A stretch of 64,000 nucleotides of DNA from an alpha proteobacterium HIMB114 (GTDB lineage: Bacteria > Pseudomonadota > Alphaproteobacteria > Pelagibacterales > Pelagibacteraceae), in contig ADAC02000001.1 in NCBI GenBank assembly GCA_000163555.2, forward strand, positions 310,001-374,000, read 5' to 3'. Numbering within the stretch: the first letter of the stretch is position 1; each line of letters begins with the position of its first letter. Shown piece by piece: positions 451-3,363 of this stretch. The position numbers were made by a program, and so were the translations under genes. The notes under the pieces are model-generated. The model saw only the letters and a program-made list of their open reading frames with translations, did not search any database and was not told where the DNA came from.

Positions 451-521
451 TCAAAATATATCACTAGCTATCTTCTTTAATATTTACTAAAATCAATAGA
501 AATAATTTAACAGGGGGAAAA

Positions 522-1511
522 ATGAAAAACATAAAAACATTGTTCGCGACAATTGTTTCAGTTCTTTTTTTATCTTCAGTGGTACATGCAGGTGGACACG
601 GTGGTGTCGAGCTAAAGTTTGGTCACGTTGGTAAACCAGGATCTTTGTTTCATGAGTCAGCTGAACATTTTAAAAATCTTGCAAATAAAAGATTAGGAAA
701 AAAAGGTAAAGTAGTAACTTTTGGATCTTCTCAATTAGGAAAAGATAAACAGTTACTTCAAAAAGTTAAAGCAGGTACTGTTAACTTTTCATTACCTTCA
801 TCAGTGATGTCATCTGTACATGATGAGTTCGGTGTATTTGATATGCCTTACATGATCAAAGACAGAAAACATATGGCTAAAGTTGAAAAACAAGTGTTAC
901 CAGGGATCTTCAAGAACTTAGAATCGAAGACTGGATACAAAGTTTTAGCTGTATGGGAGAATGGTTTTAGACATATTACTAATAACAAAAGACCAATAAA
1001 CACTCCATCAGACTTAAATGGAATAAAATTAAGAACACCTAAGTCTAAATGGAGAGTAAAAATGTTCAAAACTTACGGTGCAAACCCAACTCCAATGGCT
1101 TTCTCGGAAGTGTTTACTGCACTTAAAACTGGAACTATGGACGGACAAGAAAACCCATATGCACAAATTGCTAGTGCAAAATTCCAAGAAGTGCAAAAGT
1201 ACTTATCTATAACAGGGCATGTGTACACACCTGCTTATGTTGTAGTTCACAAAGATCAGTGGAACAAAGTTCCAGCTGATGTGAGAAAAATTGTAGAAAA
1301 AGCAGCTCAAGACACTCAAAAGTTTGTGTACAAAAGAGCAGCAGAGTTAGAGGTATCTTTATTAAAAGTAATTAAAGATGCAGGCGTAAAAGTTAACAAA
1401 GCTAACAGAAAAGCTTTTGTTGATGGAAGTGCTGCTGTTTACAAACAGTTTGGTGACGAAGTTGGTTCAGGAAACGCATTAATTAAAAAAGTTTCTGGTC
1501 TAGCTAAATAA
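522..1511 (+). CDS. dctP: TRAP transporter periplasmic solute-binding protein (DctP family)
   Basis: A 329-residue secreted protein with a signal peptide (MKNIKTLFATIVSVLF, cleavage probably after VVHA near residue 23). It matches the DctP fold: the IKLRTP segment carries the arginine that usually binds a substrate carboxylate, followed by FTALKTGTMDGQENP. It captures an organic acid in the periplasm and hands it to the DctQM membrane complex. The start follows a strong Shine-Dalgarno (AGGGGG, ~511-515). A GC-rich hairpin with a U-tract immediately after the stop should terminate most transcripts, giving more binding protein than membrane subunits. The substrate is not determinable; downstream CoA transferase and crotonase genes suggest a carboxylate that is activated with CoA. 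Confidence 0.93.
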   Translation: MKNIKTLFATIVSVLFLSSVVHAGGHGGVELKFGHVGKPGSLFHESAEHFKNLANKRLGKKGKVVTFGSSQLGKDKQLLQKVKAGTVNFSLPSSVMSSVHDEFGVFDMPYMIKDRKHMAKVEKQVLPGIFKNLESKTGYKVLAVWENGFRHITNNKRPINTPSDLNGIKLRTPKSKWRVKMFKTYGANPTPMAFSEVFTALKTGTMDGQENPYAQIASAKFQEVQKYLSITGHVYTPAYVVVHKDQWNKVPADVRKIVEKAAQDTQKFVYKRAAELEVSLLKVIKDAGVKVNKANRKAFVDGSAAVYKQFGDEVGSGNALIKKVSGLAK

Positions 1512-1520
1512 GTAATTTTA

Positions 1521-1557
1521 AAGGAGCCGGCCCTTTTCTTAGGGCCGGTTTTTTTTA
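1521..1557 (+). terminator. Intrinsic (partial) terminator between dctP and dctQ, with upstream Shine-Dalgarno
   Basis: A perfect 7-bp stem, CCGGCCC (1527-1533) and GGGCCGG (1542-1548), closes an 8-base loop and is followed by eight T (1549-1556). It is the most GC-rich spot in the region. dctQ begins one base after the T run, so the element must be leaky. AAGGAG (1521-1526) lies directly 5' of the stem; with the stem folded, only nine bases separate it from the dctQ ATG (see findings). Confidence 0.88.
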
Positions 1558-2058
1558 ATGAACATTCAAGAATTTAAAAAAAAATACGATAAAGCTTTAG
1601 AATTTGTTTTATTTGCAATGATGGTTGCTATGGCAACTGTTGTTATTTTAGGTGTTAGTTTTAGATGGGCTGGTCACGCCTTGACTTGGTATGATGAAGT
1701 AGCATCAATGCAGTTAGCGTGGTTGACTTATTATGGCTCTGCTTACGCGGCACTAAAGGGTGGCCATATAAGTGTACCAAGTATTTTAAAATCATTTCCA
1801 TTACATATTAGAAAACCCTTGTTTTTTTTATCAAAATTATTTGTATATAGTTTCTTTATTTTACTAACCTATTACGGTTTTAAAGTGATGTTCATCGTAC
1901 AAGGTGAAACATTAACAACACTGGACTGGTTTCCTCAACCACTAGCACAATCGGTTATTCCAGTTGCATCAATATTATTCATTTTATCTGAGACATTAAA
2001 TTTTAAAGATAGCTATCAACAAATGATGGAAGGAAAAATTGTAGGAGGAGAAGAGTAA
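1558..2058 (+). CDS. dctQ: TRAP transporter small membrane subunit (DctQ family)
   Basis: A 166-residue protein with four hydrophobic segments (roughly residues 16-36, 50-70, 90-112, 128-150) and the DctQ signature region ending TWYDEVASMQLAWLTYYGSAYA. In the family it pairs with DctM in the inner membrane to form a sodium-driven secondary importer that receives substrate from DctP. The ATG lies one base after the terminator T-tract and has no Shine-Dalgarno at normal linear spacing; the only candidate is the AAGGAG before the hairpin. Later in-frame ATGs would delete the first membrane helix, so 1558 is preferred. Its stop overlaps a five-codon minicistron by one base. Confidence 0.92.
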   Translation: MNIQEFKKKYDKALEFVLFAMMVAMATVVILGVSFRWAGHALTWYDEVASMQLAWLTYYGSAYAALKGGHISVPSILKSFPLHIRKPLFFLSKLFVYSFFILLTYYGFKVMFIVQGETLTTLDWFPQPLAQSVIPVASILFILSETLNFKDSYQQMMEGKIVGGEE

Positions 2059-2075
2059 TGGAGGCGAAGAAGTAA
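2043..2075 (+). other. Shine-Dalgarno plus five-codon minicistron before dctM
   Basis: AGGAGGAG (2043-2050) lies seven bases before an ATG at 2058 that opens a five-codon frame (MEAKK, stop 2073-2075), overlapping the dctQ stop as TAATG. The dctM ATG follows four bases after the minicistron stop, in another frame. The layout suggests translational coupling by termination and reinitiation. Translation of the minicistron is an inference. Confidence 0.45.
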
Positions 2076-2079
2076 AATT

Positions 2080-3363
2080 ATGATGTTGCTCATTATGTTC
2101 TCCATACTGTTATTTTTATTAAGTATTAATGTGCCAATTGCTGTAGGTATTGCAATTACAACAGTTATTGCAATGGTGGTTAACCAAGGTCCATCATTTT
2201 TAATAGATACTGCAATTGTTCTTTATGATGGAACAATGAAATTTCCTTTAATTGCAATTCCATTATTTATTTTAGCAGGATCAATTATGAATACCGCAGG
2301 CATATCAAGAAGATTAATTGCGTTCGCATCTGCCTTGGTTGGTTTTATCAAAGGTGGATTAAGCATGATTAATATAGCTGTTTCAATGTTCTTTGCTGAA
2401 ATTTCAGGTTCAGCTGTTGCAGATGTTGCAGCTCTTGGCTCTATTTTAATTCCCGCAATGAAAAAGAAAGGTTATCCCGGTGCTTTTTCTGCCGCGGTGA
2501 CATCATCTTCAGCTTCACTTGCAATAATTATTCCTCCATCAATACCTATGATTTTGTATGCAGTAATGGCTCAAAGCTCTGTTGTTCAGTTATTTGTTGC
2601 TGGAATTATTCCAGGAATTCTAGGTGGGTTTTTAATGATGCTAGCAGCATATATTTATGCTCGTAAAAAAGATTTACCCGTAGAAGAAGCTTTTGATATT
2701 CAAAATCTTAAAAAAACTGCAAAAGAGGCTGGATTAGCGTTCACTTTACCTTTAATAATTTTAGGTGGAATTTTTGGTGGAGTAGTAACTGCAACAGAAG
2801 GTGCTGGGTTAGCAGTTTTGGCAGCTTTAGTTATAGGTTTCATTCATAGAGAATTAAATTGGAAAAGTTTTTATAAAGCTGCATCTGAAGGAGCAACTCA
2901 AACCGCTATAGTAATGTTGTTAGTTGGAGCATCTGTGCTTCTTGGTGAATTTTTAACGATCGAGCAAATTCCACAAAAAGTTGCAGAGTCTATTATTGGA
3001 ATAACAAATAATAAATATTTTGTTCTAATGATATTAAACGTGTTTTTATTAGTAATTGGATTATTTTTACACTCTGCTGCTGCGATTATTTTAACTGTCC
3101 CAATAGTAATGCCACTAGTAAATGCTGTTGGAATTGATCCGGTGCACTTTGGAATTATTGTAACCTTAAACTTAGCTATTGGACAACAAACTCCTCCAGT
3201 AGCCAGCGTACTAGTTACAGCGTGTTCAGTTGCAAAAGCTGATATCTGGGAAGTGACCAGAGCAAATATTATGTTTATTGCAGTTTTATTATTTTTACTC
3301 TTAATTGTTACTTATATTCCAGCGGTGCCAATGACTTTAGTTGAGTATTTTTACAGATCATAA
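2080..3363 (+). CDS. dctM: TRAP transporter large membrane subunit (DctM family)
   Basis: A 427-residue, very hydrophobic protein with about twelve membrane segments, typical of DctM in length. Conserved stretches include FAEISGSAVADVAALGSILI, then ASLAIIIPPSIPMILYAV and a C-terminal NLAIGQQTPPVASVL. DctM is the channel-forming subunit that moves the acid together with sodium ions in related transporters. The start gives the expected N-terminus (MMLLIMFSILLFLLSINVP), so the preceding five-codon frame is not a frameshifted beginning. The next gene begins directly after its stop codon. Confidence 0.94.
   Translation: MMLLIMFSILLFLLSINVPIAVGIAITTVIAMVVNQGPSFLIDTAIVLYDGTMKFPLIAIPLFILAGSIMNTAGISRRLIAFASALVGFIKGGLSMINIAVSMFFAEISGSAVADVAALGSILIPAMKKKGYPGAFSAAVTSSSASLAIIIPPSIPMILYAVMAQSSVVQLFVAGIIPGILGGFLMMLAAYIYARKKDLPVEEAFDIQNLKKTAKEAGLAFTLPLIILGGIFGGVVTATEGAGLAVLAALVIGFIHRELNWKSFYKAASEGATQTAIVMLLVGASVLLGEFLTIEQIPQKVAESIIGITNNKYFVLMILNVFLLVIGLFLHSAAAIILTVPIVMPLVNAVGIDPVHFGIIVTLNLAIGQQTPPVASVLVTACSVAKADIWEVTRANIMFIAVLLFLLLIVTYIPAVPMTLVEYFYRS

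Follow-up and report, generated by a model that had tools for sequence, protein, structure and literature searches.

A conserved intercistronic stem-loop that probably acts on the dctP messenger in TRAP transporter operons of SAR11 bacteria

The window, by which we mean the whole stretch of 64,000 nucleotides that was analysed, lies in a 1.24 Mb genome contained in one contig, whose same-genus relatives are Pelagibacteraceae (SAR11). It carries a dctP-dctQ-dctM operon on the forward strand, which encodes a TRAP transporter and whose genes were assigned with Pfam. The solute-binding protein gene dctP occupies positions 522..1511 (PF03480, E 4e-90; TIGR00787 above cut-off), with its stop codon at 1509-1511, and is followed by genes for the small permease subunit, dctQ (1558..2058; PF04290, E 6e-20), and the large permease subunit, dctM (2080..3363; PF06808, E 1e-106). 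A Shine-Dalgarno sequence, CAGGGGG (511..517, forward strand), precedes dctP, is kept in relatives, and forms a duplex of -9.4 kcal/mol with the anti-Shine-Dalgarno. G-rich Shine-Dalgarno sequences of the form AACAGGGG(G)A or AAAAGGGGAACA lie 4-8 nucleotides before the ATG of binding-protein genes here (window 511-521) and at loci L124, L127, and L128. Near the start of dctM, a five-codon open reading frame (TAATG GAG GCG AAG AAG TAA; window 2056-2082) overlaps the dctQ stop and directly precedes the dctM ATG. A comparable TAATGGAG with a short frame is found before dctM in three relatives (L003, L004, and L005) and is absent from the others.

The gap of 46 nucleotides between dctP and dctQ reads GTAATTTTAAAGGAG-CCGGCCC-TTTTCTTA-GGGCCGG-TTTTTTTT-A, followed by the ATG. 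Its core hairpin, CCGGCCCU-UUUCUU-AGGGCCGG (1527..1548, forward strand), consists of seven G-C pairs (arms 1527-1533 and 1542-1548) and the pair U1534-A1541, capped by a loop at 1535-1540. Directly 3' of this GC-rich stem is a tract of eight U (T8 in the DNA; 1549..1556), the arrangement of a canonical intrinsic terminator, and then a single A (1557) and the dctQ start codon (1558-1560). Immediately 5' of the stem lies a Shine-Dalgarno-like stretch, AAAGGAG (1520..1526), whose GGAG is 31 nucleotides from the ATG in the linear sequence and 9 nucleotides from it after subtraction of the 22-nucleotide hairpin. A preliminary description had picked out these elements, and on re-reading the sequence its coordinates, the seven-base-pair GC stem, the T8, the A, the ATG at 1558, and both spacings all proved exact. 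The stem exceeds what is expected by chance (z = -3.65, RNAfold), with eight Watson-Crick pairs reached in only 18 of 20,000 shuffles of the 46-nucleotide gap, and the hairpin is the most stable one with a U-tract within the 444 kb of genome scanned (19 stretches plus the window). In an alignment, the ATG of the dctQ orthologues falls at the same residue. An alternative start for dctQ further upstream is ruled out by this conserved ATG and by an in-frame TAG at 1540-1542. Rfam gave no family at gathering score for the junction, and a permissive threshold returned only matches far below gathering scores. A search of the available literature for TRAP dctP-dctQ stem-loops or SAR11 intra-operon terminators found no report.

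Orthologous junctions were gathered by searching with DctQ through the genus, the family, and the order, and through contigs of named genomes. We counted 43 distinct junctions, with the last orthologue (L058) outside the count, and a strong hairpin is present in 42 of these, L057 being the exception. The stem sequences vary (CCGGCCC, CAGGCCCTC, CCAACCCACT, CGGCCTCA, CTACCGGTC, and others) and the pairing is kept. In an alignment of 15 sequences trimmed to the stem, and thus chosen to fit it, 97.8% of cells are paired, two-sided changes occur at seven of the nine pairs, and the covariation score is 0.54 compared with 0.20 in shuffles. This score is lower in every slid register, and none of 500 shuffles equalled the stem alignment on either paired cells or covariation score. 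The U-tract is missing from most g4 orthologues, which have AATATAAT or AAAAAAA before the ATG.

Similar stems recur elsewhere. Besides the one in the window, this genome has two dctP-dctQ junctions, which read TACCCCTGC-TAATT-GCAGGGGTA-TTTTTTT-ATG (L124/L016) and GCCCGCCCTC-AATTA-GAGGGTGGGC-TAATTTT-ATG (L011), and their stems end 9 and 7 nucleotides before the ATG, respectively. Neither has a Shine-Dalgarno on either side of the stem, which includes the sister junction TACCCCTGC...GCAGGGGTATTTTTTTATG. This genome also has similar hairpins 3' of ABC, Liv-type, TctC-like, and PhnD-like binding-protein genes, and stems of this kind after binding-protein genes other than dctP were located at L125, L127, L128, L132, and L142. 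The stem is found as well in 59 of the sampled distinct junctions of other (paralogous) SAR11 TRAP operons, none of which has GGAG, AGGA, or GAGG in the eight nucleotides before it. Long or GC-rich stems were additionally seen after katG (L134, 7888-7921), where the last stem bases include the next ATG, and after a periplasmic rhodanese-like gene (L147, 18352-18373), where the next ATG is 10 nucleotides past the stem. Strong stems also occupy most of the dctP-dctQ gaps in Alpha-, Beta-, and Gammaproteobacteria and in Desulfobacterota, although the high G+C there makes chance stems commoner. In three distant relatives (L076, L077, and L083) a Shine-Dalgarno sits between the stem and the ATG, with a spacer of 19-37 nucleotides. 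Given these distant stems, some with a Shine-Dalgarno after them, the stem appears to predate any Shine-Dalgarno arrangement and to be separate from it.

The use of Shine-Dalgarno sequences in this genome bears on how dctQ may be translated. The 16S rRNA tail reads GGATTACCTCC; this 3' end (L148) has GGATTACCTCCTTT where GGATCACCTCCTT is usual, and the CCTCC core of the anti-Shine-Dalgarno is intact. A Shine-Dalgarno-like motif of at least four bases, 3-12 nucleotides before the start, is absent from 353 of 399 sampled gene starts (about 88%). Motifs of four or more bases occur before 11.5% of the 399 open reading frames (444 kb) compared with 8.1% of internal ATGs, in a survey whose simple longest-frame starts dilute the signal. 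Enrichment is seen for motifs as strong as AGGAG or GGAGG (4.5% compared with about 0.6%), and a Shine-Dalgarno is thus used by a minority of genes. The dctQ gene has no Shine-Dalgarno at the normal distance, and since some 88% of the sampled genes have none, the lack of any other ribosome-binding site that the preliminary description pointed out is unremarkable. In a genome where a Shine-Dalgarno is missing from roughly nine of every ten genes, a purine-rich motif far from the start needs to be backed by comparison before it is called a ribosome-binding site. The normal sites of dctP (CAGGGGG...ATG) and dctM (CAGGAGATATTTA-ATG in most relatives) are retained across relatives, so the conservation of real sites is detectable with these genomes. 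Across the same relatives, dctQ has no conserved Shine-Dalgarno.

The preliminary description had proposed that the hairpin, on top of its role in termination, delivers AAAGGAG to dctQ, with the folded stem setting GGAG nine nucleotides from the ATG, an arrangement of a kind known in phage T4 genes. The geometry fits, in that the order Shine-Dalgarno, stem, and AUG is present with a functional folded spacing, and the anti-Shine-Dalgarno is intact. GGAG is also infrequent in the A-rich sequence leading into such stems, where composition predicts it in about 0.05% of 12-nucleotide leaders. Reading AAAGGAG as the ordinary A-tract of a terminator was considered and rejected; hairpins with a U-tract in this genome have 5' flanks rich in A (70%) but poor in G, so GGAG is unusual there rather than typical. 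Among relatives, GGAG 5' of the stem is confined to the window, L003, L004, and L005 (in the last as AATGGAG), with folded spacings of 9, 9, 9, and 8 nucleotides in these four closest genomes. Such a narrow distribution has a precedent, as the T4 gene 25 arrangement is itself restricted to close T-even phages (PMC3014915). However, GGAG is missing from all other orthologues. Two of them, L006 and L007, belong to the same genus (DctQ identity about 60%) and retain the stem with a T-rich tail but lack the motif, and their stems end 16 and 12 nucleotides from the ATG; none of the g4, g8, and g12 orthologues has GGAG before the stem. The covarying stem that had been anticipated in SAR11 relatives was thus found, but a fixed geometry of Shine-Dalgarno and ATG was not, and relatives retain the stem without AAGGAG, the very outcome that the preliminary description had named as refuting, so that delivery of the motif by the hairpin is not supported. 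The 59 paralogous junctions and the two sister TRAP junctions in this genome also speak against it, as they lack GGAG, the latter at a similar distance from stem to ATG. Most genes here need no Shine-Dalgarno, and where such sites matter in this operon, at dctP and dctM, they are conserved. The predicted fold weakens the proposal further. The minimum-energy structure (RNAfold) has 15 base pairs, a fold missed in the preliminary description, in which A1520-G1526 pair with U1549-U1555 through A-U and G-U pairs, so that the folded stem would not leave the motif single-stranded at ideal spacing. Pairing probabilities for AAAGGAG are 0.85-1.0 per base, and the predicted probability of its being open is about 0.001 or less. 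Freeing GGAG with the core stem intact would cost 4.3-6.3 kcal/mol, depending on the length of downstream sequence included, compared with about -6.8 to -7.6 kcal/mol predicted for pairing of AAAGGAG with the anti-Shine-Dalgarno. By these energies ribosome use of the motif is possible, yet it is not a ready-made nine-base geometry. The GGAG is a clade-specific extra that is predicted to lengthen the stem against the U-tract, and we regard a lineage-specific split ribosome-binding site as quite unlikely.

A different role in initiation is suggested by the position of the stem relative to the start codon. By holding a stem 7-11 nucleotides before an AUG that has no Shine-Dalgarno, the cell might keep the AU-rich start single-stranded or position the 30S subunit, and so aid translation of dctQ; this could operate alongside termination and protection of the RNA. 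The distance from stem to ATG is 7-11 nucleotides in 35 of 42 orthologous junctions and in 34 of 41 compact paralogous junctions, where about 8 would be expected under uniform placement, and the cluster is seen at junctions whose stem is flanked by no Shine-Dalgarno (for example L016, L011, and L149-L180). These counts overstate independence, as the sequences are related. In addition, the distance is 12-75 nucleotides in some orthologues (L006, L007, L018-L020, L055, and L056) and 35-49 nucleotides in one paralogous group, and genome compaction combined with a minimum ribosome clearance could yield the same spacing. The 7-11 nucleotides may therefore result from such clearance, given how compact these genomes are, or be a genuine feature of the start site, and we consider a spacer function improbable. 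The same low likelihood attaches to the broader proposal for SAR11, in which the terminator-like stem would be part of a Shine-Dalgarno-free start site in independent TRAP operons, lying 7-11 nucleotides 5' of the permease AUG, with one clade having additionally gained a split Shine-Dalgarno. The recurrent spacing nevertheless poses a testable question about starts of this kind, and a function purely at the 3' end of dctP does not require it to be so tight.

We consider it likely that the intercistronic stem-loop acts on the dctP RNA, as a leaky terminator and an exonuclease barrier that leave DctP in excess, with dctQ started independently of a Shine-Dalgarno. The stem and U8 would form an intrinsic but leaky terminator at which part of the transcripts end after dctP, and the stem would also serve as a 3' barrier against exonucleases on the dctP RNA. 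Termination and protection together would place DctP in excess over DctQM, a reading already known for operons with binding-protein genes. On read-through RNA, dctQ would be initiated, like most genes here, without a Shine-Dalgarno from the AU-rich spacer 3' of the stem, possibly aided by ribosomes finishing dctP 46 nucleotides upstream. Keeping the binding protein in excess is the most likely role of the hairpin judging from sequence comparison, which lends support to the terminator-like hairpin with DctP excess put forward in the preliminary description; the stem is conserved, covarying, and recurrent at junctions between binding-protein and permease genes. Because most g4 orthologues have no U-tract, the function conserved in them cannot be termination, and RNA protection fits both arrangements, which argues that protection rather than termination may be the part shared across orthologues. 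The comparison shows that SAR11 transporter operons regularly carry a hairpin after the binding-protein gene, which bears on how streamlined SAR11 cells could overproduce binding proteins without extra promoters.

Several known systems resemble this element in part. T4 genes 25 and 38, whose split sites were shown to have an effect by mutation and probing (PMC3014915), share the order Shine-Dalgarno, hairpin, and AUG, with linear distances of 27 and 22 nucleotides compared with 31 here and folded distances of 11 and 5 compared with 9. In contrast to these phage sites, the motif here is predicted to pair with the U-tract, and it is lacking in relatives and at the sister junctions. Candidate structured RNAs described for Pelagibacter ubique (PMC2704228) include stems in SAR11 intergenic regions, and a poly-U tract comes after some of them, although the available part of that report names no dctP-dctQ element. 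Like intrinsic (Rho-independent) terminators, the hairpin has a GC stem, a six-base loop, and U8 directly after; however, it is internal to an operon, a single base separates its U-tract from the following start codon, and this tract is not conserved in other genera. In E. coli, a structure between malE and malF stabilises malE RNA (Dar and Sorek 2018, PMC5927463), and in four further E. coli ABC systems the stabilised gene is that of the substrate-binding subunit (PMC5927463). The element described here differs in being one short perfect hairpin, with U8 in this genome and close relatives. It agrees with the malE-malF type in placing a stable stem, conserved across species, between the binding-protein and permease genes, and stems of this type that have no U-tract resemble those of the g4 orthologues.
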